Positions 2,979-25,500 of a stretch of 34,381 nt of DNA are shown piece after piece. Position numbers and translations under genes: made by a program. This DNA is from a virus, in the IMG/VR virus record IMGVR_UViG_3300010354_000286, positions 1-34,381 of that record; one strand, given 5' to 3'. Positions within the stretch are counted from its first letter, which is position 1. Every line of letters begins with the position of its first letter. The notes under the pieces were generated by a model. It was not told the origin of the DNA, did no database searches, and worked only from the letters and a program-made list of their open reading frames with translations.

Positions 2979-3977
2979 TTAATTAAAAGATCCACTAAAA
3001 CCAAAATCATCACCATCTTCAATTAATAAATTATCTGAGTTAGTAATTGATTTAATTTCAGATCCCGCTAAATGAGGAGTAATTGTTGTGTTATCTTTCC
3101 CCCTTTCAACAGTTAAAACATTTCCTGATTTTTGCAATACAAATATTTCTTCTCCTTCTATATCCAAATAAGTATTGATTGCAATAGAACTTGCGTCATT
3201 TACTGTTATGGTAGTATCTGTAACTGATATATCGTTAGTCAAATTAGTTACTACAATTCCGGTATAATTTTGTATTGCTCTTGGATTTGCAGTATAAACA
3301 ACATCTCTCGTGACGGATTTTGTATCTCCAGAAACAAATCCAAGAGAAACTTTTTTGATAACGTCTTTTGTGACAGAAGATATTGGACCAAATAAGTAAG
3401 TTTTTGCAGTGAATCTTAAAGTATAAGTTAAAACTCTTCTTGTATTAAAATCACCTTCATAGTCATCCTGCATAGTTATATTTTCTAAAATAACAGGAAT
3501 GTCTCTTTTTTCATTAATCGTATCAACCAAATCCACAGTTAGCGTGTATGCTGGTTGAAAATATGGTAAAATTTGTTCCACAATTTGAAGAACATCGTCA
3601 TTTAATTTTGACATTATACTCAATTCAAATTGCATATTATATGGAACTGGTAAATATGCTTTTTTAGTTTCTGTGCTATCTTCTGAAGATTTTACTGTAA
3701 AATATTGTGTAGTAGTTGATTTTCTTCCGGGATCGTAAGTTAATCCTGTAAATTCAAAAGACATTCTTGGTAATGTAATTTGAACTGGTTTACTTAGATT
3801 TTCCGATTGATTCAATCTTGCAAGAAATTTTTGAGTTGGTCCATATGCCAAAGGAACTTTAATAATACTGACTACATCATCAGAATTATTTTTGTGTCTA
3901 ATACTTATATTATTGAATAAAGAACCAAAAGAAATTACAGTTCTTCTTAGTATTTCGTGATAAAAATATTCAAACAT
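2979..3977 (-). CDS. 15: tail sheath stabiliser / tail completion protein gp15, with an added C-terminal module
   Basis: Caps the tail and joins it to the neck in T4-type phages. The start MFEYFYHEILRRTVISFGSLF and the body with VPLAYGPTQKFLARL (41-55), PRMSFEF (70-76), QPAYTLTV (141-148) and LRFTAKTYLFGP (187-198) are typical of cyanophage gp15. At 332 residues it is longer than T4 gp15 (272). The excess lies at about 240-313: a beta-rich unit with EGEEIFVLQKSGNVLTVERG and a TPHLAGSEI tail. A related unit is found in the two giant proteins of this window. The last residues (DNLLIEDGDDFGFSG) look like a family C-terminal peptide. A CTAAATA box lies 24 nt upstream of the start. Confidence 0.92.
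   Translation of the reverse strand: MFEYFYHEILRRTVISFGSLFNNISIRHKNNSDDVVSIIKVPLAYGPTQKFLARLNQSENLSKPVQITLPRMSFEFTGLTYDPGRKSTTTQYFTVKSSEDSTETKKAYLPVPYNMQFELSIMSKLNDDVLQIVEQILPYFQPAYTLTVDLVDTINEKRDIPVILENITMQDDYEGDFNTRRVLTYTLRFTAKTYLFGPISSVTKDVIKKVSLGFVSGDTKSVTRDVVYTANPRAIQNYTGIVVTNLTNDISVTDTTITVNDASSIAINTYLDIEGEEIFVLQKSGNVLTVERGKDNTTITPHLAGSEIKSITNSDNLLIEDGDDFGFSGSFN
3038..3258 (-). repeat. module B (GNxLTxxRG...GT/H type) in gp15
   Basis: Residues about 240-313 of gp15 carry the pattern EEI-x-x-x(4-5)-SGN-x-LT-x-x-RG-x(5-6)-T-x-H-x-x-G. Similar units occur in the DUF4815 protein (NEIIGYTGVSGNVLTSITRG, about 7695-7930) and in the giant protein (NNEIMQIRSVGFQTSG, then LIVRRPLLGT and an EHDQ, about 19170-19350). 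This is a protein-level resemblance read by eye. Confidence 0.6.
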
Positions 3978-4013: not shown

Positions 4014-5405
4014 TTAAGGCATTCCGAAAGGATTAACTTCACTGAAGTCAATAATAGAATCAGATTCTTCTTCAATTGATTTGTTATTGGCATATCCATC
4101 ATCAACTGCAGAAAATTCATCAAAAGAGAATATGGATCTAGAAGCACTTGATTCAGATCCTACAAGTGTTTCTCCTCTTATGAAGTCGCCATCTACATTT
4201 GAAAGTTGAAGTATATTCGTTGTTGAATTCCAATTTTTAACTATAGCAGTAGATCCACTTTGAGAACCTGTCACCACCTCATTAAATACAAAATCTCCTA
4301 TAGAAACAATTGGAGGACTTTCGATAGAAATTGATGGTGGAACCGTATATCCTAATCCAGAATTTGTAATATAAATCGCTGTAATAGAACCGGCAGCAGA
4401 AACAATAGCAGTTGCAGCAGCAGAAACTGATGAGATTCCCGTAAATGTAATTGTCGGGGGAGTAACATATCCAGAACCACCATCTGTTACTGTAATTACT
4501 CCAACAATACCATCTCCAATAGAGGAAATTCCAGTAGCTCCATTCCCCCCTCCACCAATAAATCTAACTGCCGGTGCAACTGTATATCCGTATCCAGAAT
4601 TTACTATTTGAACGCTTTGAACCGATTTTGCATTGGGAAAAATATTGTCATTACAAACCACAATGCCACCAATCATCTGAGCAATTGCTATAGCAGTTTT
4701 ACCTCCAGATGGAGCAGAAGAAATTCCAACAGTAGGTGTGCTTGTATATCCACCTCCACGGTTGGTAACTGTAATATATCGAACTCCACCATTTACGATT
4801 GCTGCAGTTGCAAAAGCTGTTACTGCAGTTCCAACCATAGTGAAATTGACAATATTACCGATATTTTTTGGTACAAGCAATTCATCAATTTCATCAATAG
4901 AAGTATTAACAATTTCATCTTCATACCTAAAGAGTTCACATTTTAAAACATAAGTATATAATCCCTGAAGTTGATAAAATGGTTTTTCATGCTCAACATA
5001 CTTAATTTCAAATAATCTTTTTCCGAGAGGAAAATAAATTAAATCTCCCTCTTTTGGTCGAGATGATACTTTTATATTTGGTTGACTTTTTATAAGCGGT
5101 GAGATATAATTGTTATATCTCTCTCTTGAAATTGTGAGAGTAACTTCATTTAAGGCTTGAATGCCAAATTTCGATAAAATAGTTGGATTATCACCATACC
5201 CCTCATAACTTTCCAAATAAGCTTCAATTGGATATGCATTATTGAATTCTGACTCAATAACTTCTCTTAATACTGTTTTTTCTGTAACAAATTGTCTTGG
5301 AAGATAATAAACTTCAACTCCATACATCCTCAATTGCTCATTGATTAAATCTTGAATAAGGCTTTGTTCTGATTGAGATCCTTGAAGAAAAAATGGATTG
5401 AGCAT
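4014..5405 (-). CDS. 14: neck protein gp14, enlarged by beta-repeat modules
   Basis: Head-completion/neck protein joining head and tail in T4-type phages. Residues 1-185 are the recognisable gp14 core: MLNPFFLQGSQSEQSLIQDL, then GVEVYYLPR (29-37), FGIQALNEVTL (80-90) and LKCELFRYEDE (154-164). The C-terminus SIIDFSEVNPFGMP is also what I know from cyanophage gp14. Between them, about 200-430 is unlike the core. It has a Gly-rich run with four GxGY-type units (GGGY 217, GYGY 271, GSGY 310, GLGY 350), followed by a unit with VVTGSQSGSTAIVKNWNS and RGETLVGSESSA (378-421). At 463 residues it is much longer than T4 gp14 (256). The gene starts 4 nt after the gp13 stop, without a clear Shine-Dalgarno. 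Confidence 0.9.
   Translation of the reverse strand: MLNPFFLQGSQSEQSLIQDLINEQLRMYGVEVYYLPRQFVTEKTVLREVIESEFNNAYPIEAYLESYEGYGDNPTILSKFGIQALNEVTLTISRERYNNYISPLIKSQPNIKVSSRPKEGDLIYFPLGKRLFEIKYVEHEKPFYQLQGLYTYVLKCELFRYEDEIVNTSIDEIDELLVPKNIGNIVNFTMVGTAVTAFATAAIVNGGVRYITVTNRGGGYTSTPTVGISSAPSGGKTAIAIAQMIGGIVVCNDNIFPNAKSVQSVQIVNSGYGYTVAPAVRFIGGGGNGATGISSIGDGIVGVITVTDGGSGYVTPPTITFTGISSVSAAATAIVSAAGSITAIYITNSGLGYTVPPSISIESPPIVSIGDFVFNEVVTGSQSGSTAIVKNWNSTTNILQLSNVDGDFIRGETLVGSESSASRSIFSFDEFSAVDDGYANNKSIEEESDSIIDFSEVNPFGMP
4310..4790 (-). repeat. module A (GxGY beta repeats) inside gp14
   Basis: Residues about 205-365 of gp14 hold four units of the form (V/I)-x-(V/I)-x-x-x-G-x-GY-x-x-x-P-x-(V/I). Glycine/alanine-rich spacers such as GGGGNGATG separate them. 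The same unit occurs in the gp8-like, DUF4815 and giant proteins. The spacing suggests a repeated beta-hairpin fold; that is inference. Confidence 0.75.
4393..4413 (-). repeat. 21-nt DNA repeat, copy 1 (in gp14)
   Basis: Pattern on the plus strand: gcag-N-agaaac-N-at-N-gcagtt. The copies at 17377-17397 and 18610-18630 in the giant gene share 18 of 21 bases in all three. It encodes the TAIVSAAG peptide of module A. Confidence 0.7.
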
Positions 5406-5409
5406 GAGT

Positions 5410-6264
5410 TTATCCGATCATATCGTAAGGTGGAAGTTCGTAAGTATTTGACATTCTTTCCATTAACATGTCAATCTCCCTTTGGGCATCATCATACATT
5501 TGTCTTCCATTCAACTCAACACCCCCTGGAAGTTTGACTCCAGTAAATTTCATCATATTTTGCCCCCATTGCTTTTTAATTAAAGAAGTTAAATATGGTT
5601 TTAGAAAAGAGTCATTCCAAACTTTTGAGTAATCATTTGGATCAAGAGTTGAATAACAATCTATAATAAAAATTTGCCCCTCCGTTACCGATCCCCAGTC
5701 TATATCAAGATACAGTCTATCTTGTCTTTTATTAAATCTTATCTGCTTTTGGGTATTTAATAAGAAATCCAAATCTTCAAGATATGTTTTAACCATAGCG
5801 TAACTCAAAAGTTCAGTTGTTCCCCAATAATAAACATCATTTAAAAATAACTGATACTTAACACTAAACATATTGTGAGTGATTGTATTTGCTCCATCAA
5901 ACATGAATATTTTATTAATTCCTATTATGTTTGGTGGAACTTGTAAATAGTTACTATTTTCATAAAAAGTAAATGTTGTCGCAGTTCCTACTATGTTTGC
6001 TACAGCTGATGTGCTTGCTATACCAACTGAACTTGTAGCTTTGGATCCAAATCCAGCTCTTCCTCTATCAATATCTTCTTGTGTTACTTGATACTTATAA
6101 AATGTTGGATAAACTCCATCAAAATGTCTTTCTTGAAAGAACTGTATAGCATCATCCACTAGATCTTCAATCTGTTCGTCTGCGACATTAATTTCTAAAA
6201 CTGGATATCCCAATTTTCTTTTGCAATAATCAATAAGTTCTTGCCTAGTGGATGGTTGTGCCAT
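5410..6264 (-). CDS. 13: neck protein gp13
   Basis: Head-completion/neck protein that, with gp14, closes the portal after packaging and receives the tail. The N-terminus TRQELIDYCKRKLGYPVLEI (about 6-25), then DEQIEDLVDDAIQFFQERHFDG (29-50), is the hallmark of cyanophage gp13. The rest includes INKIFMFD, YYWGTTELLSYAM and a C-terminal helical part with QWGQNMMKFTGVKLPGGVEL. Its 284 residues compare with 309 in T4. A short Gly/Ser/Thr stretch (SVGIASTSAVANIVGTATT) resembles the G-I/V-G-S/T runs of the giant proteins. The ATG overlaps the stop of the preceding 56-residue gene (TAATG), suggesting translational coupling. Confidence 0.95.
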   Translation of the reverse strand: MAQPSTRQELIDYCKRKLGYPVLEINVADEQIEDLVDDAIQFFQERHFDGVYPTFYKYQVTQEDIDRGRAGFGSKATSSVGIASTSAVANIVGTATTFTFYENSNYLQVPPNIIGINKIFMFDGANTITHNMFSVKYQLFLNDVYYWGTTELLSYAMVKTYLEDLDFLLNTQKQIRFNKRQDRLYLDIDWGSVTEGQIFIIDCYSTLDPNDYSKVWNDSFLKPYLTSLIKKQWGQNMMKFTGVKLPGGVELNGRQMYDDAQREIDMLMERMSNTYELPPYDMIG

Positions 6265-6434
6265 TAGAATTTAAAACTCGCTACTACTTCTTGTTGTTTA
6301 AAATATAATTTGATATAAGATTTTGCTAAACTTTTCAAAGTTTCAATATCATCTATACTATCTATATCTCTAGATATTTTTTCATATTCAAATAATTTAC
6401 TCATATTTTCTATAGAGATATCTTTATGATCCAT
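6264..6434 (-). CDS. conserved small protein, 56 residues, unknown function
   Basis: Translation MDHKDISIENMSKLFEYEKI...VVASFKF. It is acidic/basic mixed and probably all helix. Its ATG overlaps the end of the 74-residue gene by 11 nt and follows a GAGGAA ribosome-binding site. Its stop shares one base with the gp13 start codon (TAATG). I recall a similar short protein just before gp13 in other cyanophages, but no function. Overlaps on both sides and a proper ribosome-binding site support a real gene. Confidence 0.82.
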   Translation of the reverse strand: MDHKDISIENMSKLFEYEKISRDIDSIDDIETLKSLAKSYIKLYFKQQEVVASFKF

Positions 6435-6648
6435 TTGCCAAATTCCTCAGTAAAATTTTAATTTCATCCAAATCATTTTTAATTTGATTGACGTTTTTTT
6501 CCACCTGATCTATCCTTTTATTTTGATTATAAAGTCTTTTATAATTATTTTCATATTCAATATAACCATTTAGGTCATTATTAATAATAGCATTACTTTC
6601 AATATTTCTCATCAAATAGTTTTTATCTTTTACCTTTATGTGTTCCAT
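6424..6648 (-). CDS. small coiled-coil protein, 74 residues, unknown function
   Basis: Translation begins MEHIKVKDKNYLMRNIESNA; the second half (about 42-70) is a heptad-like run, RIDQVEKNVNQIKNDLDEIK followed by ILLRNL, predicted to form a coiled coil. It starts 7 nt after the stop of the DUF4815 gene and overlaps the next gene by 11 nt, so it is probably co-translated with gp13. Cyanophages often carry a small gene of this kind here. A structural or chaperone role would fit the setting, but nothing in the sequence proves it. Confidence 0.82.
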   Translation of the reverse strand: MEHIKVKDKNYLMRNIESNAIINNDLNGYIEYENNYKRLYNQNKRIDQVEKNVNQIKNDLDEIKILLRNLANGS

Positions 6649-6655
6649 AGTTTAA

Positions 6656-9600
6656 TTAATCTACTTCGGGTAATCTGGTTGCAATCGCTCTAAGTTGAGA
6701 CAATAATGGAGGAGACGCTTGATTTGTTCCTGCCATTACAATCTTAATAGCAAATGCAGTAAATGGTGGTAAATTATCAACGGTATAAGTGTATTCCTTA
6801 AATTCCCCATCGTTTGATTCTTTAACAAAGATGTCAGAAGATCCATCACTTAATGAGGTATCAATTATACTCCTACCAATTCCATCCAGTTTATAGTTAG
6901 AATATCCTGGGAATAATTCAAAAGAATCTTGATCAATAGGTTGGTCTGGTCTAAAAATTTGATAAAGAACTCTTATATCATTAGTTTCATTTTTGTTTGC
7001 GGAAAGAATAACATTAATTGAATTAGCTGGAATGGTCAAATAAATTGGTTCAGTGACGTATACAGCTGCGTGTGGATCATTATCAACTCCCCTAACTTCC
7101 AAACTGTCTGCATAACTAGAAACTTCATCTAATCCTACTGGATTGTTAATTAAATTCGAGGTTAATAATAGTGAAGGTGGTGGGTTAATATCAATGACAG
7201 GAGAAACTCTTTCATCATTTGTGCTCATTAAAATGTCTAAACTGAAAGATTTTCTTTGTGGAGATTCTGTGATGAATTTTTGCTCATTAATGTCTGAGCA
7301 AATGATTCTTGGTGATTGGAAATAAAGTCTTCCGTTTAATGGAAAATCTTGATATCCTGCATCAACAAAAGATTTTTCATTTCCACTAACACTCGTGCCA
7401 GTAAAGGTTCTTAGTCTAGATGTCATATCAGTTTCGGATAAAACAACACTGTTAATTTTTAAACCAAGAACTTCATATTGGATGTTATTTGAAAGAATTG
7501 TTCCAGCTCTTCCTGATTGAATTGTTTTGCTGAAGTATAAGTCATTGGATCTATCCGATCCAATACCAACACCATCAAAATCAGTGGAACCAGTGTCAAT
7601 TTTGATATAGTAACTATTAAGATCAATTGGGTGAGTGTTTGTATCTACTTCAGAAAAATTGTGAACTTTATTAATTCTTCTTATAGAAATTCCATTATAT
7701 TCATATTTAAATACTGGTGAATTAATGTCATAAGATTGAGCCTGAGATCCATCTACACCCCTTGTAATAGAAGTCAAAACATTTCCAGAAACTCCAGTAT
7801 ATCCAATAATTTCATTGCCAATGATTACATATCCAACATTTGATGCACTAACCGGTTTCCCCTCAAATTGCGTGAAACCTGCGCCAGATTGAACAGATAT
7901 TGAAGTATCGGAGTCACCTAATTCTTCAGATAATATTGTATTAAATGTATCTGAAGTTGGTCTAAATTCTTCAATTTTAACATAATTTTCTGGAGAATGC
8001 ATTCCATGATTTTGATGGAAAACTTTCATGTGAAGCCCATCATAATATTGATCTTCTATAATTGTAGATATAGTCACTCCAGCTCCGATTTGTGTTGTTA
8101 TGCCTGAAGAATTGATATAATTAATTGTTGTAATTCCGGAAGAAAATGTTCCTTGAACTTCATCTATAATAAATGTATTTGTTGATCCAATTGATACAAC
8201 AGTAACTTTTCCTCCATATCCAAGATTTTCTAATCTTGGAATTCTCAGCGAATCTCCTATTAAATATCCGAATCCACCAGATGTTATAGTAACTGTAGAA
8301 ATTCCTGCCGTGGTAACTCCAATTGTTGCCACTGCGCCTGTTCCATTACCAGTTTCTGTTTGGAGTGATATATTTGTAAAAGTTCCCACACTATAACCAA
8401 TTCCAACATTTGATATTATTACGCCGGATTGAGATGTAGATATACTTCCCCCAATACCGATTAAAGTTCCTGTCGCTGAATTTTGTGACAGAGTAACTCC
8501 TGGAACTACATTTTCTACATCAAATCCAGTGGAACCCAAACCAACAATAATTTTTTTAGATAAAGGAGTAAAACTATTTGTTGATGTTACTGTCAACTTG
8601 TTATTTCCAACAGAAAGTTTGGGATTGAAGAATCTAACAATTCCTTCATTAACAAATGAAGCTCTATAAATTACATACTTTAGATCTTCAAATTGCGAAG
8701 GAGTCCACGTAGTTCCATTTTGGGATTTGAAGAGACTTCCTAAAGTTGGTTGAGTTGATATTCTAGTTCCTGTAAGAATATCGGTTTCTCCTAATCTAGA
8801 AATAAAGACCCTGTAGTTGGGACTATCGGAAAGAAGAACAATTGAATATTCTGAGTTTGGAACCTCATTTACTCTAACTGATTGCTCTTGTGCTGGTGAT
8901 AAGTATACTGGAGATGGGAACACAAATCTCGTCGCAACACTTCCATCGGATGAAACATTTACATTTTCTGGTTCTAATGTAACTTCTGAAAATGGAATTA
9001 TAACGTTACTGGGAACCCCTGCAATCATAGTTCTTAATTGCAAAGTAACTGGAATATCATCATCTTTGGTTTCAAAGAAAATATCAACTCCGGTTAAAAA
9101 TATACCAGTTTCATCTTCGACAAAGAAGGATTGTGCTAGAGGATCTTTTCTTACTTGTCTCCTCCTCGATGATCTTCCTTCTGGAAGTAAAGATGCTTTT
9201 ATGCGAGCAACATCCCAACTAGAAACTCCGGTGGAATTGGGTCTAAGTGAATCTGCAGGAGCTGGCCAAGTATTCTTTGTTAAATTAAATTTGCCGGTTC
9301 TCAATATTGGAAAATATACATAATCTCCAACACGAATTCCCCAAGTTCCAATATGCTTAACTGTTTTAAGAATTGAAGTTGTTCTAAATCTAATAAAATT
9401 TCTTGGCCTTACAAAATCTCGATAATCTGCAATTGGAGCATTTCCTACTCTAGAATCAACTTGCCCAGAATAAGCACTTACTCTTTGTCTTGCATAAGAT
9501 CCAGTTCCAGAAGAACTATCATATACTACTGCACCATTCCATTTAATGACAACATCTCCAGCCTTCTCATATGGGGAATTATCATCGTCAGAAACTCTAG

Positions 9601-12600
9601 AAAACCATCCACACAATGCTTCACTTGCTGTGGTTAATGCTGGGTTTTTATTAACAGAAACACTACTGCAAATTTCTACGTCAGCATCACTTTCTTCAGG
9701 TAAATTGGGATCAGGTAATGTAGGTGGTTCTGGAATTGATGGCTTCGGATTTGAAACTAATGGAGTTCTCGTTGTAATTATGTTAATTTCAGTAATTTCT
9801 ATAGACCCAGATGACGTAAATTCTGTTTCCGCGCTAGAATCTGCTGTTGATGAAAGTGATGAAATATTATTGGATCCAACACTGAGAGTGTTTCCTACCA
9901 CTTTGAAAGTATTTTGTCCGTTTATCCATTTTGGATTTCCTGGAACAGTTGAATCTGGAATGAATAAAGATCCTATGAGTCTGCCATTATTATCAGACAC
10001 TAAACGAATATCGGTAATAGTAGCAACAGCACCTGATGTTTTACCGATTAGTTTCATTCCAACACCAACAGAACCAAAAAATTCAACCTCTGTTGGTAAT
10101 TGTAAAGATCTAGTATCTACATTCAATACTGTAGATGATCCAGAATAAACTACCTCGGGTGCAGTTTGAGTGTATGGTATAAGCTTATATGTTTCTTGTG
10201 GTTCACTATACGGACCTGTTTTGTGGTTTGGTGTGCATAACCTAAATTTGATTTTTGCCGTTGTAAAATGTGGATCACTTTCTACAGTCTCTCCTACTTG
10301 GAAAGAACCAGAAATCATACTAATTTCAAGAAGTTTTGGAATGATGTAGTTGGAAACATCTATATTTTCAAAGAAAGGTGAGAATTTTGATCTTGGTTTA
10401 AGATTCTTGATATCAAACTCAATATTTCTACTTCTCAAATACTGGATATTTTCAGTATTCTTGTCTATCATTACTTCCGTATTTGTATCAAATTCATCCT
10501 CAAAAGAAGGTGGTGATTCATCTTCCTCAATTGGAGGAGTTGGAGATGTTTGATTTGCTGGTGGAGTAAAATCTAGACTGATAATTCCTCTATTTCTCTT
10601 TCTCCCTCGACCGGAACGAGAATTTAAAATCCTTGTAATGTAGTCCTCTGCAATATCAGGTGGAACAAGCTGTCTAACTAAATCAGCAAAACTAATTCCA
10701 TTTTTATTTTTTTTGAATATTTTTTTTGCGTTTCTGCTGTCCCACTCAAGATGAATGGTAGTTCCATTAACAATTCCATTACTTACTTTCCTATCAACTA
10801 AATCTCTAGAAATTAATTCTACAGTGCCTTTACTATAACGACTTCCAATTCTTAACCATTTATTTCTATAATATCTTCCATATCTTCCAAATGAATAATA
10901 TTTTCCATTTATCAATCTCCACCTTCTTCTTTTTAGTAACAAATTGTCAGTTAAAATGTCTCTAGCGTTGGCAATCCAATCGAAAGGAGGAACCCCAGAA
11001 TTTGGTGATGGTGGTAGAGAAGAAATTGGAATGTCATCAAGATTATCTTTTATTACCGGAGAATTATCTATTGTGGTTTCTTTAGTTATTACCTTCTCTT
11101 CAATCCAATCATCAAAACTTGGACGAAGTTCTATTGTTCCCTCCCAATATCCAATTAGATATGGAACAACATTTTCTGTTGTTGATGCATACGTTTGGGA
11201 ATCAAATATTGTACTATTATAACTTAATGTAATTAATTCTCCCGTTTTTGTAATATTAGGAGATCCAATATCTGATGGGTAGCTCTTATCGGAGTTTGCA
11301 GAAAAAGTATCAGTAAATCCGGCAATTGCTTCGCTACCTAGCTCTAATTCTAAAGAAGTTGTGTAATGTAAAGGTCTTAATGTATTTGATGAAAAATCTA
11401 CAGATGATCTGAATAGAGGGTTTTGCAAATCATGATATGCATGAGAATCAAAATTATCAACAAAAAATCCACATTTAAATCTGTCTAATCCAGTAACTGA
11501 GTCTTTTATACTATAATTTTCAGTTTTACTTTCCAGCATAGAAAGTGTAGTATATTTTTCCAACCTATTAATTCTATCCTCTAGGAGAGAAATATCCTCC
11601 ATCCTATATCTTTTATGTTGAGAAATATCAATTTTTACGTTTTTCGTATTATAGAGATAAGGTGGAAGCGTAATACTTGCAATATCAAGTGTATTTGGTG
11701 GAAAATCTGGGGTTGATGGTGATTCATTAGGAATTCCTTTTGCAACTTCAAAAGAACCATCTTGTTTCAGATATATTATATCAATTCTGGGCAAATAATA
11801 TGAATATGATAAAATTAAATTTTCATCTGGACACAGTGTATATTTAGAATATTGCCCTTCTCCGCTAAAGTTTCTTGATTCAAACTCAAATGGTGATTTT
11901 GAATTTGCATCCAAGACAAAGGGAGAAACTCTTGGTCTTATGTCAATATGATCTGATAATCTACGATTTTCATATAAAGGAATATCATATTTAAATGAAT
12001 TTGCCGGGTAACTATTGACTGCAACAAATTCTCCAGTGTCACCTGAATTAATTGTATAATTTTGAAAAACTATTTTTAATTTTCTAGTAGGGATACTTGT
12101 ATTTTCTTTTCTAATAAGTCTACCATAATCATAATGTGTTGATCGTTGCCCATCATCTACAAAGAAATTTTGACTAATATCTTTTGATGTAGATATTATT
12201 TTAGATGTTATTGTTGCGTTAACTTTTGATTGTTCTCCAGTGATAACTTCCTCTACAGAAAATTGATTTCTATTTAAGTAAATATATTCTAGAGAATCAA
12301 CAGATATTTTTCCTACAACTAATGCAGCTGCACCACTTGATTTTCCTGTAATTTGTTCACCAATTACAAAATCTTGGTTGGTATTTGAAGCACCGGTAAA
12401 TCCAGTAAGTTGAATTCTTGGTAGTTGTGGTTCAGAAGTGTCAGAAGATTCATAAACAGCAAGAACTCTGACAATATCTGGAACATTTAGACATATCTCA
12501 TCGTCTTGAACTCTTACCCCATAAACTCCACTATACTCTAATCCATCATTAAGCGTCGTTGTACCAATACCAGATGCTACATTTCGTGATTTGTCAATAA

Positions 12601-14965
12601 CTAATGTTGATGCTGTGTTGAAATTTTTTATTTTAAAACTTGGATTAACGTTTTTAACAGTTGTTATTACTGTTGCCGTTCCACTCGTACGTGTTAATCC
12701 ATAAAAAGTAAGAATTTTTCCAGTTGTATCGAGATCATACTTATCGAACCTCATTGGTTCTATTGATCCATCAGCATAAATTATTACAAATCTATCCTCA
12801 TCAAAAGAAGCAAAATATAAATCAGGTTCCGTTAGGGTTAAAGTTATATATCCGTTAGAAAAAACCTGATTATTAAATTCTCTTCGTTGTAGTATTTCTT
12901 GACTTTCTAAACTAATATTTGAAATATTATCAAACCTCAATTTAGTCATTAATGAAGTATTTGAAGATTCACTTAGTCCAGTGAGTTTAATTATATTAGC
13001 TACCTCAATCAATTCTGATGGCAATTTTCCATCACATATAGAAGAAACTGAAGTAATTCCGGAAACTGTAAATGAGAGACCATCGTTAGCGACGTTTTCT
13101 ACTTTGTTATAGATTACATCTCCACCTAAAATAGTGCTAGCATATGAAACAATATCTCCAGACTTAATTTTGTTTGTAAAGACAACATCAAGTCCAGCAG
13201 ATATAGTGCTTATTCCCCCACTAGATGCAGTAATTGTGAAAATTGTTCCACTTGGCGATATTAATTCTTTTTGAGATAAAACAACATCACTATTAAAAGT
13301 AGAAATTCCACTAGAGGAGTAAATAGACTTTACATCACTAATATTAAAGTCAGTGACTTCATTTATTAACCTTCCATCATCTAAACCATTTATTGTGATT
13401 GGTTCATTTTCTAGAAACGTTCCAGATACACCATAAAGAGTTAGGATTCTATTGTTCGTAATACTTGATTTTAGAAATCCGGATGCTCCACTTCTTTTTC
13501 CTTTAATTAACGCAGGTGTTTCTAAGGAAGAGATGCTTGTAGTTAATCCAATCCGAGTAAAAGTTTCGATATCAAATAATCTTAAATTGAGACGACTTTT
13601 ATCATCAACATAATTGGTTTCTGGAATAAAATCATACACTCTCGCTACACCAATTGTTGTGCCAGCTGCAACATGAGATGAAACTCCTATCCTTGAGTTC
13701 ATCAAAGATACAAATGCCGTTGTTCCTAGTCCAACTGTAGGGGATCCAAAACCTCTATTTAAAATTAAAGAAGTTCCTGCATCATAACGTATAACTTCAT
13801 TTTCAATAGTTTTTGTGGTTCTTGGTTTTTCGGATACTAACTCTACCGAAGAAATTTTTTCGACATCATATCCATTAACATATGCTTTTCCAGAGCTTAT
13901 TTTATAAATTAGTAAATCATCAGATGGAGTGTTTCCATTTGCAGTAAGTTCATTGCTATAATATAAACCATCAGATCTTACTCTATCGTTTAATGACTCT
14001 CTTACCGTAACATTAAATGGTTTAATATAATAATTTCCAGATTCCTCATAAGTTCTTTTTGCTAACTCATCACGAATTAAACTATACTGAGTAGTTTCTT
14101 TCTTGAATATTAGATTTCCATTTTCAACTCTTAATATCTCTACGAAGTTATCTGTTTCGGAATCGTCTATATTTTTTTTCGCAAGAAATATCTCTATTTT
14201 GAATCTATCGGATCCTGGCGCCGCATAATTAGAAAATCCTTTTGCATTATCAAAAAGAGATTCATCTTCGTCCGAAGAAACTATACTTTCAACTACATCA
14301 AATCCTATTTTATATGATGGTGTAGAACTATACTGGTCTAAAATAATTCTTTGAGTTTTAACACTTACAAAATTACCACGAATAAAATAAACTCCATCAT
14401 TTACAATTGCAGAAGATCCTACTGAATTTGCATTTGATGATTTTGTATTACAAATTCCTTCATTCGCTTGTATTGTAAATCCAAGATCACCATAGGTTAG
14501 GGGTGATTGTAAAATTAATGTTTCGCCATCAGAAAATTGAAAATTTTCAAAATTAGCGCCGCCATTTTCTAGATATTTTACATATAATGTAAAACTATTT
14601 CTTTCAGAATCATTTTCATTGAGTGTATAAACTACTTCGGCCAAAACTCCACTTATAGATCCTCTAATTTTTTTCCCTAAAAGATTGGAGAAATATAATG
14701 ATATTGGAGTTCCATTGTATGAATTTTCAATCTCCACTGCATAAAGTGGATTATCAATTCTAATGAGACCTGGAACCACTACCGATCCTTCTTTAAATAT
14801 ATGGTTTCCAAACTGCTCAATTTGATTCTGAAGAATGGATTGTAAAGTTGTTAGTTCTCTTGCCTGGATGGGATATCCGGGCTTAAAAAGAACTTTTTGA
14901 TAGTTTTTATCCTTATCAAAATCATCAAAATATGGAGATACATTTAAATTTGTTTTTTGTGGCAT
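6656..14965 (-). CDS. giant DUF4815-type virion structural protein (gp9/gp10 position)
   Basis: Predicted tail/baseplate structural protein of 2769 residues. The N-terminus, FDKDKNYQKVLFKPGYPIQA then RELTTLQSILQNQIEQFGNH (about 16-55), is the DUF4815 signature. Residues about 1338-1490 are an Arg/Lys-rich insert (LLKRRRWRLINGKYY, SRSGRGRKRNRG) ending in a Pro/acidic linker (SPTPPIEEDESPPSFEDEFD). A second Pro-rich linker (NPKPSIPEPPTLPDPN) is near 1731-1758. Residues about 1943-2108 begin DPLAQSFFVEDETGIFLTGV and then VDIFFETKDDDIPVTLQLRT, a conserved T4-like cyanophage tail domain. Modules A, B and C occur within it. It follows the gp8-like gene by 6 nt. In T4 this slot holds gp9, gp10, gp11 and gp12; which of these it replaces is not clear. 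It probably lies at the baseplate periphery or fibre attachment. Confidence 0.85.
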   Translation of the reverse strand: MPQKTNLNVSPYFDDFDKDKNYQKVLFKPGYPIQARELTTLQSILQNQIEQFGNHIFKEGSVVVPGLIRIDNPLYAVEIENSYNGTPISLYFSNLLGKKIRGSISGVLAEVVYTLNENDSERNSFTLYVKYLENGGANFENFQFSDGETLILQSPLTYGDLGFTIQANEGICNTKSSNANSVGSSAIVNDGVYFIRGNFVSVKTQRIILDQYSSTPSYKIGFDVVESIVSSDEDESLFDNAKGFSNYAAPGSDRFKIEIFLAKKNIDDSETDNFVEILRVENGNLIFKKETTQYSLIRDELAKRTYEESGNYYIKPFNVTVRESLNDRVRSDGLYYSNELTANGNTPSDDLLIYKISSGKAYVNGYDVEKISSVELVSEKPRTTKTIENEVIRYDAGTSLILNRGFGSPTVGLGTTAFVSLMNSRIGVSSHVAAGTTIGVARVYDFIPETNYVDDKSRLNLRLFDIETFTRIGLTTSISSLETPALIKGKRSGASGFLKSSITNNRILTLYGVSGTFLENEPITINGLDDGRLINEVTDFNISDVKSIYSSSGISTFNSDVVLSQKELISPSGTIFTITASSGGISTISAGLDVVFTNKIKSGDIVSYASTILGGDVIYNKVENVANDGLSFTVSGITSVSSICDGKLPSELIEVANIIKLTGLSESSNTSLMTKLRFDNISNISLESQEILQRREFNNQVFSNGYITLTLTEPDLYFASFDEDRFVIIYADGSIEPMRFDKYDLDTTGKILTFYGLTRTSGTATVITTVKNVNPSFKIKNFNTASTLVIDKSRNVASGIGTTTLNDGLEYSGVYGVRVQDDEICLNVPDIVRVLAVYESSDTSEPQLPRIQLTGFTGASNTNQDFVIGEQITGKSSGAAALVVGKISVDSLEYIYLNRNQFSVEEVITGEQSKVNATITSKIISTSKDISQNFFVDDGQRSTHYDYGRLIRKENTSIPTRKLKIVFQNYTINSGDTGEFVAVNSYPANSFKYDIPLYENRRLSDHIDIRPRVSPFVLDANSKSPFEFESRNFSGEGQYSKYTLCPDENLILSYSYYLPRIDIIYLKQDGSFEVAKGIPNESPSTPDFPPNTLDIASITLPPYLYNTKNVKIDISQHKRYRMEDISLLEDRINRLEKYTTLSMLESKTENYSIKDSVTGLDRFKCGFFVDNFDSHAYHDLQNPLFRSSVDFSSNTLRPLHYTTSLELELGSEAIAGFTDTFSANSDKSYPSDIGSPNITKTGELITLSYNSTIFDSQTYASTTENVVPYLIGYWEGTIELRPSFDDWIEEKVITKETTIDNSPVIKDNLDDIPISSLPPSPNSGVPPFDWIANARDILTDNLLLKRRRWRLINGKYYSFGRYGRYYRNKWLRIGSRYSKGTVELISRDLVDRKVSNGIVNGTTIHLEWDSRNAKKIFKKNKNGISFADLVRQLVPPDIAEDYITRILNSRSGRGRKRNRGIISLDFTPPANQTSPTPPIEEDESPPSFEDEFDTNTEVMIDKNTENIQYLRSRNIEFDIKNLKPRSKFSPFFENIDVSNYIIPKLLEISMISGSFQVGETVESDPHFTTAKIKFRLCTPNHKTGPYSEPQETYKLIPYTQTAPEVVYSGSSTVLNVDTRSLQLPTEVEFFGSVGVGMKLIGKTSGAVATITDIRLVSDNNGRLIGSLFIPDSTVPGNPKWINGQNTFKVVGNTLSVGSNNISSLSSTADSSAETEFTSSGSIEITEINIITTRTPLVSNPKPSIPEPPTLPDPNLPEESDADVEICSSVSVNKNPALTTASEALCGWFSRVSDDDNSPYEKAGDVVIKWNGAVVYDSSSGTGSYARQRVSAYSGQVDSRVGNAPIADYRDFVRPRNFIRFRTTSILKTVKHIGTWGIRVGDYVYFPILRTGKFNLTKNTWPAPADSLRPNSTGVSSWDVARIKASLLPEGRSSRRRQVRKDPLAQSFFVEDETGIFLTGVDIFFETKDDDIPVTLQLRTMIAGVPSNVIIPFSEVTLEPENVNVSSDGSVATRFVFPSPVYLSPAQEQSVRVNEVPNSEYSIVLLSDSPNYRVFISRLGETDILTGTRISTQPTLGSLFKSQNGTTWTPSQFEDLKYVIYRASFVNEGIVRFFNPKLSVGNNKLTVTSTNSFTPLSKKIIVGLGSTGFDVENVVPGVTLSQNSATGTLIGIGGSISTSQSGVIISNVGIGYSVGTFTNISLQTETGNGTGAVATIGVTTAGISTVTITSGGFGYLIGDSLRIPRLENLGYGGKVTVVSIGSTNTFIIDEVQGTFSSGITTINYINSSGITTQIGAGVTISTIIEDQYYDGLHMKVFHQNHGMHSPENYVKIEEFRPTSDTFNTILSEELGDSDTSISVQSGAGFTQFEGKPVSASNVGYVIIGNEIIGYTGVSGNVLTSITRGVDGSQAQSYDINSPVFKYEYNGISIRRINKVHNFSEVDTNTHPIDLNSYYIKIDTGSTDFDGVGIGSDRSNDLYFSKTIQSGRAGTILSNNIQYEVLGLKINSVVLSETDMTSRLRTFTGTSVSGNEKSFVDAGYQDFPLNGRLYFQSPRIICSDINEQKFITESPQRKSFSLDILMSTNDERVSPVIDINPPPSLLLTSNLINNPVGLDEVSSYADSLEVRGVDNDPHAAVYVTEPIYLTIPANSINVILSANKNETNDIRVLYQIFRPDQPIDQDSFELFPGYSNYKLDGIGRSIIDTSLSDGSSDIFVKESNDGEFKEYTYTVDNLPPFTAFAIKIVMAGTNQASPPLLSQLRAIATRLPEVD
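7695..7930 (-). repeat. module B copy in the DUF4815 protein
   Basis: Encodes a beta-type unit with DTSISVQSGAGFTQFEG, NEIIGYTGVSGNVLTSITRG and VDGSQAQ. It is the clearest partner of the gp15 C-terminal module. Confidence 0.6.
8205..8435 (-). repeat. module A copy in the DUF4815 protein
   Basis: Two GxGY-like units (NVGIGYSVGTF and SGGFGYLIGDSLRIP) flank a Gly/Thr-rich spacer (GNGTGAVATIGVTT), matching the gp14 repeat layout. Confidence 0.65.
12190..12370 (-). repeat. module C (GxxSGAxAxV...GExIxGxxS) in the DUF4815 protein
   Basis: Encodes VIGEQITGKSSGAAALVVGK followed about 20 residues later by VEEVITGEQSKVNATIT. This is the same arrangement as residues 370-425 of gp14. A looser copy (LIKGKRSGASGFLKSSITNN) is near 13380-13520. 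Confidence 0.6.
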
Positions 14966-14971
14966 GATTCT

Positions 14972-16543
14972 TTAAAATTGCAAAATGATCTTAACGTCTT
15001 CTTTTTGATTTTGAGACCTTGTGATCGAAGGTCTATTATCAACATATAATGTGTCTCCAGAATGTTTTTTTACTTCAGGAGATGCCATTCCTTCTACAAA
15101 CTCTTGACCTAAGTAATATGTCTTATTATTTATGACAATACTTGAGGATGGAGATACTTCTGTACCAAAACTCACATCAATTAATAAAGAATAATCATCT
15201 CCTACTATGGATAAATTTCCCCCTGTTCCTGGGGAAGAAGTAAATTTTATAGATTCAAATCCATATGTTGGCGAAAAATTGTCACTACCATCAAAATTAA
15301 ACCCGTATAGAGTTCTATCTTGCCAATATTTTAAAATCCCAGTGTTAGAATCGTAGGAAATAACTTTACCAACCGCTGTTGTTCCTGTAGATACTGTTTG
15401 TGTAATTAAACTATCTGGAGCATAAACAGCATCTTGAAAATTTCCTCCCAATTTCATAGCATAAACGGCACTAACTTTATCGTCAGTTAAAATTTGATCG
15501 GAGTTAAATCCAAGTGGATTTTTTATAATTCCAAATCTTGCTACTTGATTGCCTATGATGAAATCTGGATTTTCTAAATCATTTTCTATTCTAGAATAAA
15601 TTAGAACATTATATGCACCAAGTTCTCTATAAATATCATACCCATGACCACCCAAGGGAGGAATAACCACTTCAAAAACGGGAGAAGAATAACCGATCTC
15701 CGTTGTAGATATATCACTAGACTCAATATCTACGGATGCATAGGTATAACCAGAACCTCCATTAGAAACAGTTATTGATTCTACTTGAAAATTATCATTT
15801 ATAACAATTGTTGCGGTTGCTCCAGTTCCATCACCTTTAATTGGTATGTTTGAATAAATTCCCGGGGATCCTAAATTATTTCCCCTATCTCTAATAATTA
15901 TATTCTTAATTTGCGATGACGTTTTTGCATTTTCTTTTATTAACGAAGTGCTTTCGTCATTCCCCCAATCCTTTGGAACTGGTATATAATTAATTCCATC
16001 AAACTTAATAATATCGCTTGGTGAAATAGTATAAAGATATTTCCACAAATACCCATCACCACTAGTTCCTGCAGGTCTTGGTTCAAAATCAATAAAAGTT
16101 GGTTCATCCAAAGATGGTTTTCCTTCCGGATTTTCCGGATCTGATCCATTATGAATACAAACATAAACTTTATATTCGCTATTAACGATATAATAGTTTG
16201 CGGAATATAAATTAGTTGCTTGTGAAGGGAGTGATAAATTATTTCGACTAATTTTATGACGATACATGTCATAAGTAGTCCCAGATTGCCAAGAAATCTT
16301 TCTAACTACTTGTTTAACATCTTCCGGTTTAATTTTTTTTAATGCAATTGTAGTATCCCAATAATCATTTTCATCATCAAAACTATCTTTGGGTGCCGGT
16401 GGGTTGATATCCCAATCAGAATCATATTCTGATGCATTCGGTAATCCAATAAAAACATAATATGAATTGGAGGAAGATGTTGCCGATGAAACAAAGTTCT
16501 TGGCATTCAATATCCGTAATTGGTCAGTTATAATTGCAGACAT
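14972..16543 (-). CDS. 8: baseplate wedge protein, gp8-like
   Basis: Placed as the T4 gp8 counterpart from its position between the gp7-slot giant and the gp9/10-slot protein, and from its N-terminus (SAIITDQLRILNAKNFVSSA, then NSYYVFIGLPNASEYDSDWD), which I associate with cyanophage gp8. The first half carries IALKKIKPEDVKQVVRKISW, YIVNSEYKVYVCIHNG and DGYLWKYLYTISPSDIIKF, a conserved core. The second half includes a module A unit (GDGTGATATIVINDN, then VSNGGSGYTYASVDIES; nt about 15740-15905) and a module C-like unit (TGTTAVGKVISYDSNTGIL). Its 523 residues exceed T4 gp8 (334), consistent with added modules. Two overlapping late-promoter-like boxes lie upstream. Confidence 0.78.
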   Translation of the reverse strand: MSAIITDQLRILNAKNFVSSATSSSNSYYVFIGLPNASEYDSDWDINPPAPKDSFDDENDYWDTTIALKKIKPEDVKQVVRKISWQSGTTYDMYRHKISRNNLSLPSQATNLYSANYYIVNSEYKVYVCIHNGSDPENPEGKPSLDEPTFIDFEPRPAGTSGDGYLWKYLYTISPSDIIKFDGINYIPVPKDWGNDESTSLIKENAKTSSQIKNIIIRDRGNNLGSPGIYSNIPIKGDGTGATATIVINDNFQVESITVSNGGSGYTYASVDIESSDISTTEIGYSSPVFEVVIPPLGGHGYDIYRELGAYNVLIYSRIENDLENPDFIIGNQVARFGIIKNPLGFNSDQILTDDKVSAVYAMKLGGNFQDAVYAPDSLITQTVSTGTTAVGKVISYDSNTGILKYWQDRTLYGFNFDGSDNFSPTYGFESIKFTSSPGTGGNLSIVGDDYSLLIDVSFGTEVSPSSSIVINNKTYYLGQEFVEGMASPEVKKHSGDTLYVDNRPSITRSQNQKEDVKIILQF

Positions 16544-16555
16544 TTTGAGATTTTT

Positions 16556-16567
16556 TATTTATTTATG
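16556..16567 (-). promoter_or_regulatory. tandem late-promoter-like boxes upstream of gp8
   Basis: Minus strand reads CATAAATAAATA: CATAAATA (16567-16560) and AATAAATA (16563-16556) overlap, and both fit NATAAATA. The first ends 16 nt before the gp8-like ATG. Its TAA (16565-16563) is the stop codon of the giant gene. Confidence 0.5.
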
Positions 16568-19500
16568 TTGTGGAATAACCAATATATTTAAGAGAATTTG
16601 ATCTTATCACGCTAGGAGAAGTTGAAATTCCAGCATATCCATTAATATTTGCAGTGAACTGTTTGGGGGTTTTTCTAGTAAAATCACTAATAAGTCCCCA
16701 AGAATAATTTCCAAAAAATTCACTATACCCAGTTCCGGTTAACCCATTGTAATTTTGAACACTTGCAATAACTCTAGTTACATATGTTATACCTATTCCT
16801 GGAACAGATGTTTGTGCAATAGAAACCGAAGTAGCACTGTAAATGTTATCTAAAAATGTAGTACCAATACCAACAATAGATCCTGAAGAATCGAGAGCAG
16901 TAACTCCATTTCCAATGTTAGAATTTGTTACAACAAATAAATATCCCGTTTGAATTCCACTGATACCAGTAGATGCTATTCCAACAAATGGATTTATCAA
17001 AGAATTTCTAACGTAAGACAATGGGGGAATAAAAAGATCAAATGCTATTCCCGTAGAAGCTACGCCAACTGAAGTAGTGGAAATTCCGACAATAATTCCA
17101 AAATCTCCATGATAGCTTGCACTTGTAATATCCTCTTGAATTAAAGATGGCGATTCTATAATTATTAGAGGTGGATTTGATGATGTATATCCAATACCAG
17201 AATCATTTATAATTATAGAGGAAACCGTTCCACCAACCGATATAACGGATGTTGCTAAAGCAGTGCTTCCTATTCCCACCGTCAAACCATATCCAACTGG
17301 GTTTTGAATTATAATTGCTGGTGATGTGGAATAACCAACTCCACCATCTAAAACTACAATTGATGATATAGTTCCTGCAGAAGAAACGATTGCAGTTGCT
17401 GATGCTGATACTAAGTTATCTTGGGAGATTATTTTAAATGATTTCTGTGGAATATTATTTGTTCCATCCTGAACATATTCTCTACCGCTATCAAAGAAAG
17501 TTTTTACATTTTCTACAAATATCACAGTAGAAGAAGTGCTAACATTACTTATAATGTTTGTTGTGGGATAAATTAGTGGTTCATACATCACTCTAGTCTT
17601 TCCAATATATTTTCCATTCACGAATTTATCTTCAGTCTGTTTGCACAAGGTTACGGGTCTCTTTAAAAGAAGATTGGAAGAAATACCAATTCCAAAATAA
17701 GGATTTGTAACCACTAGGTCACTATTTGTAATTTGTTCAATAAGTCGTTCATTTTCATCTAGTAATGAATTATTAGAATTAATATTAATAGTATCTCCAA
17801 TCTCAACCTGTTCCAAAATATCTACATTTTGAACATCGACACCACCTGTTCCTTTATATAAAAGTATTTTTATACTATCTTCAATTTTTGGAGCCTCGAC
17901 AAATTCAATTACACTTCCTCCGGAGAATAAGTATCCTTCACCGGGAACTTGTAAAACATCATTTATAAAAACTAAAAGTGTTGCTTGAACATCAATTTTT
18001 GACCCCTTTTTCGCTCTTATTGACGTTTGTTGCCCGTCAATTTTAATTGGGAATAATTTTCTGGATCCGTCAATGAGATTTTCAATGGAGTCTAAAACTT
18101 GCAAATCTCCGAGTGACCAACCAACGAAGTTGTCGCTATAAGTTTTATCTACAGTTATTTGAAACTCCTCAAATGATAAAGATGTATTTGTTGGAATACC
18201 AGAAACTCCCCCTGAAGAAACTGTCAAAACATCTCCTACTCTATATCCAAAACCATAATTTTTAATTTCAAAATTAATAACACTTGATCCCTGACCTACA
18301 ACAATGTTTACTTTAGCTCCCGTGCCAATTCCAGAAGTACCAACACCAGAACTATAAACCAAAGGAATATCACTATAAGAAAGTGGGGAATCGAAAATTA
18401 CAATAGGCGGATTTGATGTAGTGTATCCTATTCCCGGATTAGTAATAGCAACACTTACAATACTTCCATCGATAATAGATGCTGTGCCAATATAATGAAT
18501 ATTTGGTGTTCCAACATCAGAAGTTGTTACGCCAACATTAACTGTGGTTTGAATTCCAGATCTATATCCAGATCCACTGTTACCAATACTAACTGATAAT
18601 ATTGTTCCCGCAGCAGAAACTATGGCAGTTCCTCCAGCAGACACTAAAGGTTGATACCCAAACCCGTGCGTTGACGCCACAGAAACAATTATTCCTCCTC
18701 TCGGAATATTAGTTAAATTAATATCATAATCATAATTTATATTTGTATTGCCATCAAAAGAAATAGAAGTTATTCCAGAATTCTCTTTTAAAGTATATTG
18801 ATTATTTTGTATTGTTCCACTTGTTTTGCTTGGAGATTGGAAAACATTATTAATTAAAATAATTGCATTTGAAGTAGATATTCCATTTATATTAGTTGAA
18901 TTTGAAGTGATGTTAAATTGAGTAGTGAACCCTGTAAATTCGGATGATATTTCGTCAAAAACATAATTTTTCTCATAAGTATCAAACAAACTATTTTCAA
19001 TGCCAGATCTTAAAAAGACTCTGCCACTAAATGTAGATGTATCTTTTATGCCAAGATAATCAACTTCGTCATACTTTGTGCTTGTATTGGATTGTAAAAT
19101 TTTTCCATAGGGAGGATCGGAAAAATAAATTGTGTTATTAATAATATTATAATTTCCCTTTACTTTGGTTACAACATCAAACTGATCATGTTCCTGTGAA
19201 ATTGTTCCTAATAGTGGTCTTCTTACAATAAGTCTTCCAGATGTTTGAAATCCAACAGACCTAATTTGCATAATCTCATTATTAATCTTGATTAAATCTC
19301 CACCAATAAAATCTTCAGGATTAATTATGTCAACAAAAGAACCGAATCTAGATAAAGAAGTTGATAGACCCGTTGTTGTTCCTGAAGAAACAACCGGATA
19401 TTGTATCACGTTATCAATTGTTATTAAGCATTTTGAATTTTGTTTCTTTGCCACGAATGAATGTATTGGTCTTCCTAAAACTTCTGGCGCAAGAGATGTT

Positions 19501-22500: not shown

Positions 22501-25500
22501 TTATCATAAGAAGAAATTTCCGGTGTATATTGTGGTTGATATGTAAATGAGGTAGAAGAAACCCCGACTACTGAATATTTGCCATTGTATAAACTATTAT
22601 CAACGATAATTTGGCTAGCATTTTCGATATCACTATCAACAATAATTTCTAAATTTTCTGAATCATTTGTTTTTATGTCGATAGGTGATAATTTGTAATA
22701 TAGTTTATTTGGTATATTTTTTGTGTCTATTTCAACATAAGATCCAGAGTCAACCCCAACAGATCCAAATCTAACAACATCAAAAATCTTTGTTTTGCCA
22801 GATGATTCATATTCATTTTGGAAATTGGGATCGCTATAAAAATCTAATCTAAAAGCAGGTTGATTAGTAGACCCTTTTTTATATGAAAGTGAGGAATCTG
22901 ACAAATCAAATCTAATTTTGGAATTTTTAATTACATTTATTGGTGGATTAATTTTTGAAATAACTCCACCAGAAGTTGAAGTAAAGTCAACATAATTTGG
23001 ATTATTTTTAATGGAATTATAATAAGTTTCAGATAATCTAATTTTATCTTCACTTACAACTATAACATAATAGATTTTATCATTTTCCAATCCACCTATC
23101 GGTGAATCTGATGTATAAATTATTTTTTGTCCGTTCTTTAGTTTATGATTTCTAAGTGTAAGGGTGTCTTTAACTGCATCAACATCAGATGAAATAAATT
23201 CAATAATGTCTGCAGTGAATCTTCTATGCTTTTTGTTATACTTTAATTTTATAGACGTAGAAATCCCCGAGGTGACTTTTATTTCTATAATATCATTTCT
23301 GGATATTCCATGAGGTTCCTCTGTTTCAACAGTTACTATACTCTTAGTAACATCAGATAAAAGAATATTGTCATAGTTAGTTTTAAAACTATGAGTATTC
23401 CCCAATCCAATTGAGGTAAAGTATAAAATTCCAGATTTACTTGTTTCAATGCCAACATACTCTCCTAACGATCCAATTCCAACTCTGAAAGTGGAAATGC
23501 CTATTAAATCTTCTGATAATTTAATGACATATAGATTTTGGGATGAAGGTAAAGTAAATGTTGAAATGCCATTAGTCGAAACACCTAGAGATGTTCCTCC
23601 ATTTGAACTATAAATTACTTTATCTCCTGTTTTGAGTTGGTGATTTTCAATGTAAATTGATTGTGTTGGTATTGATTTTACATTCCACTTATTAATATAT
23701 GCAGTGACACCAATTCCAGATAATGAAGAAGTGTCAAAATTAATACTAATAGAAGATTCGCCTATAGAAACAATTTTCTTTTTGGTAGTATTGAATGAAG
23801 AATTTGTTGCATTAACAATATCAACATATCCACCATTCGTATAACTTTCTAAATCTTTAATATCAATAAAATATAAAAATGTAGTTGATCCAGTTCCTAC
23901 TGCAACTGGATGATTAAACTCATTAACATCCAAAAACAAAGTTGAAGTTATACCAACTCCAGAAGTAGTTCCAACGCCAACAGAAGTTGTGGGATCAAAG
24001 TATAACTCCTTGTTTGAAGAAAAATTATAAGATGTTGAAATACCAAAAGAAATTTTAAATTTTCTTGGATTTTCTGTTATAGCAATTCCAGCAGAAATTG
24101 ATGTTAACCCAATAGTATTATTTTGATTTCTTAGTATTCTGATTTGCGATTTTTGGGGATTAATATTCAATACTTTTACTTGTTCATCCCCAAGAAAATA
24201 TATATCATTCTCTCTGATCTTAGATGAATCAAGAGATCCAGATATGTTTAAATAAGTAACTATTCCGGTAACAGAAGATGAATCTATTCCAGAATTGATT
24301 CTTAGTTGATGCTTATCTACAGTTATTTTTTCAAAAATATTGTAATCATACGAAGAGGTGATATTGACAACATCATTTGTTGATAAATTATGTGGAACAG
24401 TAGCATATCCAACATAATCATTATTATTAATTTTAACAAACTCCACAAGAGAAATGGAAGTTGTAGACGCACTTACTCTATTAACTACTTTTCCTTTTAG
24501 TTCGGATACAAAAGATTTTACCTCAGAATTATCTAAAATAATTTTATCTCCTATGGCGTATCCAGTTCCTCCGGTTATAATGCCAATAGAGTCAACAGAA
24601 TTTTTTAATACTGTTTTTACTGAAGAAATTTGCGTTTTGGTTTTATTCGGATTAGTAAAGTAGTCGTAATGGGAATTTTTGTTTAATATTCCATATGGTT
24701 TTGTATTTCGTAGTAGGGATGTTTTATTAATATCCGTCTTTTGTGATGATAAAAATCTATCAAAATTAAATGGAATAGAACTAGATTTATAAGTATTGCC
24801 AATTACATATGGGAAAATTGGTTTTTTGTATTTAAAAAATGATCCAGTTGATTGTGGATTACCAGAATCAATAGTGCAAAAATATGCATAAACTCCATTT
24901 GGGAAATCGGGTGTTACGCAGAATCTTCCATTGTGCTCGTCTAGATTCCCCAATCCCACATACTCATAATCTTCAACAAAAATTCCCAATGGATAGTTTG
25001 GTCTATTATTAATATTTGTTTTAAGTTCATATCCAGAAACCATGGGAACAACTTGTCCCCCTAAAATTGATGAATAACCATATGGACCATATATTGGGTT
25101 TCCATCGTATGCCCATCCAATGATCGGAGAGTGTGTTTTTGATGTTGATTCTACGCCACTAGGAATGTTAGGAGTAATATCAAGCAATTCTAGGTCTGGA
25201 TTATAAATTAATTTTCCATTAAAGCTTCTAGTTCCAAGAACACATGATCTCAATTTTCTTGGAGCATATAAATGAGTATATTCTAGTTCGTCATTATTTT
25301 TAAACTTCGAGTAAAGAACGCCATCATCATCAGAAATTTGATTATTTTTAAATAATCTTTCAAATAAATTAATTCTCCAACTTTTTATATTTGTTTCAAA
25401 CTTTGCCTCCTTTCCGGAGGATATTACGTTTATAATTGTTTCTGGTTCATAGTTACTACCTCCAGAAATTATCTCAACTTTTTTGAGGAGGTTATTTTCT

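Follow-up and report, generated by a model that had tools for sequence, protein, structure and literature searches.

A variable array of GxGY beta-units in the gp14 head-closure protein of a T4-like virus and related units in baseplate-region proteins

Introduction

Head-closure proteins are regarded as conserved plumbing, and Ig-like domains are optional beta-domains that lie scattered over phage structural proteins. In the T4 virion, residues 178-256 of gp14 contact gp15, and fibritin docks on domain III of gp13 (PMC12270204). In lactococcal siphophages of the 936 group, carbohydrate-binding modules decorate the neck, the Dit protein and the major tail protein (PMC6669499). It is already known that phages reuse small beta-modules in their virion proteins, those of the neck among them. 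The apparently new elements here are a GxGY repeat, the variation of its copy number in a head-closure protein and its occurrence in baseplate-region proteins as well; as judged from titles, abstracts and passages, we found no description of the repeat in the literature searched.

Gene block and nearest relatives

The window (the whole stretch of DNA analyzed, 34,381 nucleotides) is an IMG/VR virus fragment that carries a T4-like virion gene block with all genes on the minus strand: gp25, gp6, a 4171-residue protein (the giant protein), gp8, a 2769-residue DUF4815 protein, gp13, gp14 and gp15, with what looks, by eye, like the beginning of the terminase large subunit gene at the end. We take the giant gene to occupy the gp7 position of the T4 gene order; the syntenic gene in Bellamy and ACG-2014f is annotated as ‘baseplate wedge initiator’. 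The gp13-gp14-gp15 order is preserved, and the closest isolates at gp14-gp13 are the Synechococcus phages S-SM2 and Bellamy, so the host of the window virus is probably a picocyanobacterium. The first-pass annotation had described the unit in four adjacent virion genes; these do lie in a single block, but they are not strictly adjacent because gp13 sits between gp14 and the DUF4815 gene. Between the terminase gene and an ORF at 2544-2963 we also noted a 659-residue ORF (541-2520) with DUF5661 and DUF6321 domains that is apparently a mosaic of several phage families.

Architecture of gp14

The first 180 residues of gp14 (4866-5405, minus strand, as are all features below) form the conserved head-closure core and are a clear member of the T4-type Hc2 (stopper) proteins. 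The core matched PF11649 at 4e-30 and PHROG 460 at 2.5e-130, gp14 matched T4 gp14 in the PDB by sequence at 3e-26, Foldseek placed the gp14 model on chain 0 of 9mkb at 1.7e-8, and VIA aligned the core with T4 gp14 at Z 8.3-8.7. Every significant Foldseek match of the model among solved structures was T4 gp14. In BFVD, the whole model matched, among others, a P22 gp10-like protein and neck proteins of Tenacibaculum phage PTm1; these may be matches to the core.

The core is followed by the first strand of a C-terminal beta-barrel (module B; residues 183-190, 4836-4859) and then by an array of four GxGY beta-units (residues 191-367, 4305-4835), which lie at about 4710-4814, 4545-4691, 4431-4541 and 4314-4424 and are supported by a unit HMM, by pLDDT and by the absence of the block in T4-type and P-TIM40 gp14. 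The remainder of the barrel (residues 368-430, 4116-4304) has strands at residues 377-429 with pLDDT 86-93 and occurs without the array in cyanophage P-TIM40. The protein ends in a ‘DFSExNPFG’ tail (residues 440-463, 4017-4088) that is common to all aligned cyanophage gp14 proteins, and a ‘DF.E’-like end is also seen in T4-type gp14 proteins. VIA alignments with archaeal aIF2gamma span residues 183-430 of gp14 but cover only about 68 residues at a middling Z of about 6; we read this match as the split module B barrel of the predicted structure. The insert had been proposed to span about residues 200-365 between a normal core and a normal C-terminus. Its limits were right and its N-terminal flank is normal by PF11649, PHROG 460 and VIA; the C-terminus is not simply normal, as a barrel segment of about residues 368-430 separates the array from the conserved tail.

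The AlphaFold model of gp14 has a mean pLDDT of 80.5, with values mostly of 91-97 over residues 191-430 and a dip to 70-84 near residues 241-260, and its strand pattern repeats four times on the GxGY register.

The GxGY unit in four virion proteins

Each unit is about 40 residues long and consists of a strand, a second strand, the GxGY turn and a third strand; gp14 has four units, the giant protein at least five, and gp8 and the DUF4815 protein one pair each. We scored a strict motif, [VIL]x[VIL]x(2-4)GxG[YF]x(2-5)P, against the expectation from 500 shuffles and found four occurrences in gp14 (0.02 expected), four in the giant protein (0.06 expected), and none in gp8 or the DUF4815 protein. 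The earlier claim that a ‘(V/I)-x-(V/I)-xxx-G-x-GY-xxx-P’ motif is common to all four proteins thus holds for gp14 and the giant protein, whereas the units of gp8 and the DUF4815 protein lack the proline.

The sequence relation among all four proteins was nevertheless borne out by a 42-residue unit HMM trained on units from gp14, gp8, giant-protein residues 3464-3739 and bacteria; the training set included the window gp8 and its relatives, and left out the DUF4815 protein and giant-protein residues 3890-3986. The HMM found the four gp14 units at E-values of 3e-11 to 8e-16 and five strong units in the giant protein at 1e-6 to 3e-10: three at residues 3475-3634 (18177-18656; 1e-6 to 3e-9) and two, held out of training, at residues 3890-3986 (17121-17411; 2e-8 and 3e-10). 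Three or four further units of the giant protein, within residues 828-1525 (24504-26597; at residues 828, 1095, 1145 and 1492), are weak and degenerate, with E-values of only 0.006 to 0.09. In gp8, a tandem pair at residues 207-279 (15707-15925) has a degenerate first member, and its second part (residues 234-279) scored 1e-10, or 2.4e-7 with an HMM built from gp14 units alone. The pair in the DUF4815 protein (residues 2172-2244, 8234-8452) has a weak first member, and residues 2197-2244, held out, scored 3.2e-6. Scores far exceeded shuffled controls in all four proteins; against the best of 100 local-composition shuffles, gp8 reached 31.1 bits (7.6 for the shuffles) and the DUF4815 protein 16.7 bits (0.3). 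The units are short and glycine-rich, so the kinship of individual units depends on few residues. Not all GxGY strings are units: of the three in gp8, those at residues 153 and 290 were rejected, as was the one at residue 2352 of the DUF4815 protein.

A modeled giant-protein segment (pLDDT about 79-89 in the first two units, lower in the third) repeated the strand pattern of gp14 when DSSP assignments were compared on the GxGY register, the models not being superposed. At this level of predicted strand order, the comparison gives no sign of different folds. Foldseek gave no significant solved-structure match for the giant segment.

The unit is one of several small beta-modules shared within the block, since modules B and C are likewise shared. 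Module B has weaker relatives in the DUF4815 and giant proteins; ‘GExIxGxxSGA’ barrel segments common to gp14 (4116-4304) and the DUF4815 protein (12203-12388 and 13397-13510) matched at E-values of about 1e-3 to 8e-6. Module C is a different insert, at residues 241-325 of gp15 (3003-3257), ahead of the conserved ‘DDFGF’ tail. It was defined by presence and absence among gp15 proteins, being present in S-SM2 and Bellamy and absent in T4-type phages, S-RIM, P-TIM40 and ACG-2014f, and it has a relative at residues 2343-2411 of the DUF4815 protein (7733-7939; E 1e-4).

Two other domains were noted in the giant protein. Directly after the three GxGY units, residues 3658-3739 (17862-18107) form a predicted domain similar to the N-terminal domain of gp17, the T7 tail fibre, and of related proteins (VIA Z 7.0-7.5 to 9k09, 8dsp, 7boz and 8ck1), and residues 1311-1404 (24867-25148), also within this gp7-position protein, match the YHYH domain PF14240 at 1.2e-24.

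Variation of the array among gp14 proteins

In an alignment of 18 gp14 proteins, the core (up to about residue 180) and the tail at the C-terminus were common and the middle was variable. There were no units in gp14 of T4-type (256 residues), Vi01-like (213), Vibrio K414 (224) and Stenotrophomonas (212) phages or of P-TIM40 (291); one strong and one weak unit in ACG-2014d and S-RIM2/8/12 (355-390); and two to four units in the remaining proteins (463-492). The great majority of gp14 proteins in the clade of the window carry four units. Among 216 metagenomic gp14 proteins, most were 450-490 residues long. Units 3 and 4 are missing from one of 380 residues (L189) and unit 4 from one of 436 residues (L060), and six of 836-952 residues had five to eight motif matches with the same core and tail; since all these lengths come from assembled metagenomes, individual values may be in error. 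In the six long proteins (L207, L232, L238, L257, L260 and L261) the extra units are accompanied by a further, non-GxGY block.

The array is therefore a block of zero to eight or more units among related viruses, absent, partial, fourfold or multiple in gp14 proteins that are otherwise alignable, and whole units seem to be the steps in which its copy number changes. It is not uniformly present in gp14, being missing from T4-type phages and P-TIM40. The pair in gp8 also varies: in an alignment it was missing from the T4-type phage phi-Grn1 and present in other cyanophages and in Stenotrophomonas phage Yut3.

Insertion points and kinship of units

The gp14 of P-TIM40 has the module B barrel without the array, and the giant protein of the same phage carries many units. 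Compared with P-TIM40, the S-RIM array lies between the strand ‘FTVGEEVVG’ and ‘AEVKSW’, whereas in the window, S-SM2, P-SSM2, S-SKS1 and related phages the equivalent strand, ‘FVFNEVVTG’, comes only after the array. The pairwise alignments to P-TIM40 on the window side are weak, with 110-118 aligned residues of which about 37-47% are identical. Since two different loops of one C-terminal barrel appear to be occupied, the alignments suggest at least two insertions into the gp14 barrel, in two cyanophage lineages; relocation of the array is a possible alternative.

The occupation of two loops also bears on the proposal that the unit is ancestral to gp14, with the C-terminal stretch ‘YVVVNNRGKSFESSP’ of T4 gp14 as a remnant from which the array grew in place by duplication. 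A phmmer alignment of this T4 segment with unit 1 (‘YITVTNRGGGYTSTP’) speaks for such a remnant, but with the unit HMM the segment reached -4.5 bits, less than the 2.8 bits of the best among 1000 shuffled T4 tails, and we rejected it as a unit; together with an array found in two different loops, this makes an ancestral unit highly improbable.

Between phages, units that occupy the same position share 50-78% of their residues (59-68% across gp14 proteins). Unit 4 of gp14 averaged 42% identity to giant-protein unit 1, compared to 29-34% to the other gp14 units, and unit 4 of the window shares 47% of its residues with the giant-protein unit at residue 3913 (62% in DNA). That unit 4 is nearer to giant-protein units than to its own neighbors favors a transfer between the genes, and the identity of same-position units between phages makes that exchange old. 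Recent gene conversion between gp14 and the giant gene was rejected, the best DNA identity being 62% and the units being conserved by position across phages; by these sequence comparisons, the present genome shows no recent exchange. The suggestion that the unit is a mobile structural module is mostly supported: block presence and absence, copy number, two insertion points, predicted strand order and the kinship of unit 4 with the giant protein fit it, with a movement that is old rather than recent.

Spread beyond the window

Most of the units in five cyanophage genomes belong to gp14, the giant protein and gp8, and further ones lie in a tail-fibre-like protein of P-SSM2, the DUF4815 protein and ORFs of unknown function; a T4-like control genome had none. 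A tblastn search of phage records with the bare array returned 31 Synechococcus, Prochlorococcus or marine-virus records, in which the matched proteins were neck proteins wherever named. No curated family in Pfam or NCBIfam matched the unit above cut-off; a two-unit consensus gave sub-cut-off matches only and, with phmmer against the PDB, chance matches only. The GxGY unit thus indicates a repeat family outside the coverage of Pfam and NCBIfam. One of the unit-consensus matches was to PF22639, domain I of tail sheath gp18 (8e-4, 19.8 bits with a cut-off of 27), and the unit may be present in some sheath proteins.

Outside phages, large proteins of PVC bacteria contain the unit as well, the consensus matching ten places in a Kiritimatiellota genome and six in a Verrucomicrobia genome. 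The scan of genome contigs used phage sequence and reached only two bacterial loci, so this spread is a lower bound. In a Verrucomicrobia metagenome-assembled genome (L183), a GxGY pair appears, by eye, to interrupt a multicopper-oxidase-like sequence, which, if true, would be another sign of insertion into loops of unrelated domains.

The occurrence of units in unrelated proteins, bacterial ones included, along with the wide range of copy number and the clean loss of units in L189 and L060, is what would be expected if independently folding repeats were merely tolerated in exposed loops and spread between virion genes as neutral spacers with no selected function in gp14. We consider this doubtful, as by far the most gp14 proteins of the clade have retained four units and the unit positions each show 59-68% identity, a conservation that suggests selection.

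Proposed role at the neck

Fibritin_C was found in none of eight cyanophage genomes and in the one T4-like control, and the segment on which fibritin docks (domain III) is missing from gp13 of the window and of the other cyanophages aligned. Given these absences and the contact of gp14 with gp15 in T4, we propose an array held out at the neck as a contact or spacer element. The GxGY run would be inserted in a surface loop of the beta-barrel between the gp14 stopper core and the gp15-facing tail, and six copies of gp14, a number taken from the T4 neck, would hold six beta-arms out around the head-tail junction. Such an array would gain and lose whole units, would have come to share its unit with the gp7-position protein, gp8 and the DUF4815 protein by shuffling long ago, and would act, at a neck probably without fibritin whiskers, as an optional element for surface contact or spacing. 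We judge this overall picture of beta-units in a gp14 barrel loop, six neck arms, whole-unit gain and loss and old shuffling with the three other proteins to be probable. The decoration or host-contact unit envisaged in the first-pass annotation fits the absence of fibritin and of the gp13 docking segment; P-TIM40 and other array-free cyanophages are also without whiskers, so neck decoration is not required, and surface contact as the specific role is put forward only tentatively.

A different role, in which the units do not protrude but lie against gp15 and the first ring of the sheath, so that the added modules of gp14 and gp15 stiffen the head-tail connection, draws on the binding of gp15 by residues 178-256 of T4 gp14 in the virion (PMC12270204) and on the gain of module C by gp15 of the same clade. 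Such reinforcement is unlikely, because a copy number that runs from zero to at least eight in related phages does not readily suit a fixed interface, and the array and module C do not always occur together (ACG-2014f has units and no module C). A wider proposal, which we also regard as improbable, is that a strand-strand-GxGY-strand family is a general currency of shuffling among phage virion and bacterial surface proteins, and that at least two insertions into gp14 produced six length-variable neck arms that replace fibritin whiskers as a contact device.

Our preferred reading, an optional array of beta-units at the neck, suggests that whiskerless phages abundant in aquatic habitats may have an exposed structure at the neck. 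An array that varies from zero to at least eight units and is shared with baseplate-region proteins offers a simple testable case of module exchange within a virion, and the data point towards a structural part that phages can reuse by fitting it into the proteins of their particles.

Comparison with known systems

The gp14 of T4 itself has neither the GxGY array nor the module B barrel, and is 256 residues long compared to 463 in the window. The fibritin (gpWac) whiskers and collar of T4 are unrelated in sequence to the array, but they would be comparable as fibrous neck elements if the array is exposed. Ig-like domains differ from the GxGY units, which have about 40 residues and three strands each; gp14 matched no Pfam Ig family, and Pfam and NCBIfam scans of gp14, gp8, the DUF4815 protein and the giant protein gave no Ig-like or bacterial Ig match over cut-off. 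The tailspikes Dpo31 and Dpo36 (PDB 28lx and 8ck1) contain two GxGY stretches at residues 443-461 and 487-504, with a profile E-value of 2.4e-4 for the sequence; the best single stretch alone reached only 0.04, and the likeness is one of sequence. The Kiritimatiellota and Verrucomicrobia proteins share tandem GxGY units and a ‘GGGGxGA’ spacer and are about 50% identical to the unit consensus, but they are cellular proteins of about 1400-2700 residues. The modules of the 936-group lactococcal siphophages are BppA-type carbohydrate-binding modules with demonstrated host binding, whereas GxGY is a short tandem repeat; what the two have in common is that a single kind of beta-module recurs, as an extension or as an insert, in several virion proteins, including those of the neck (PMC6669499).
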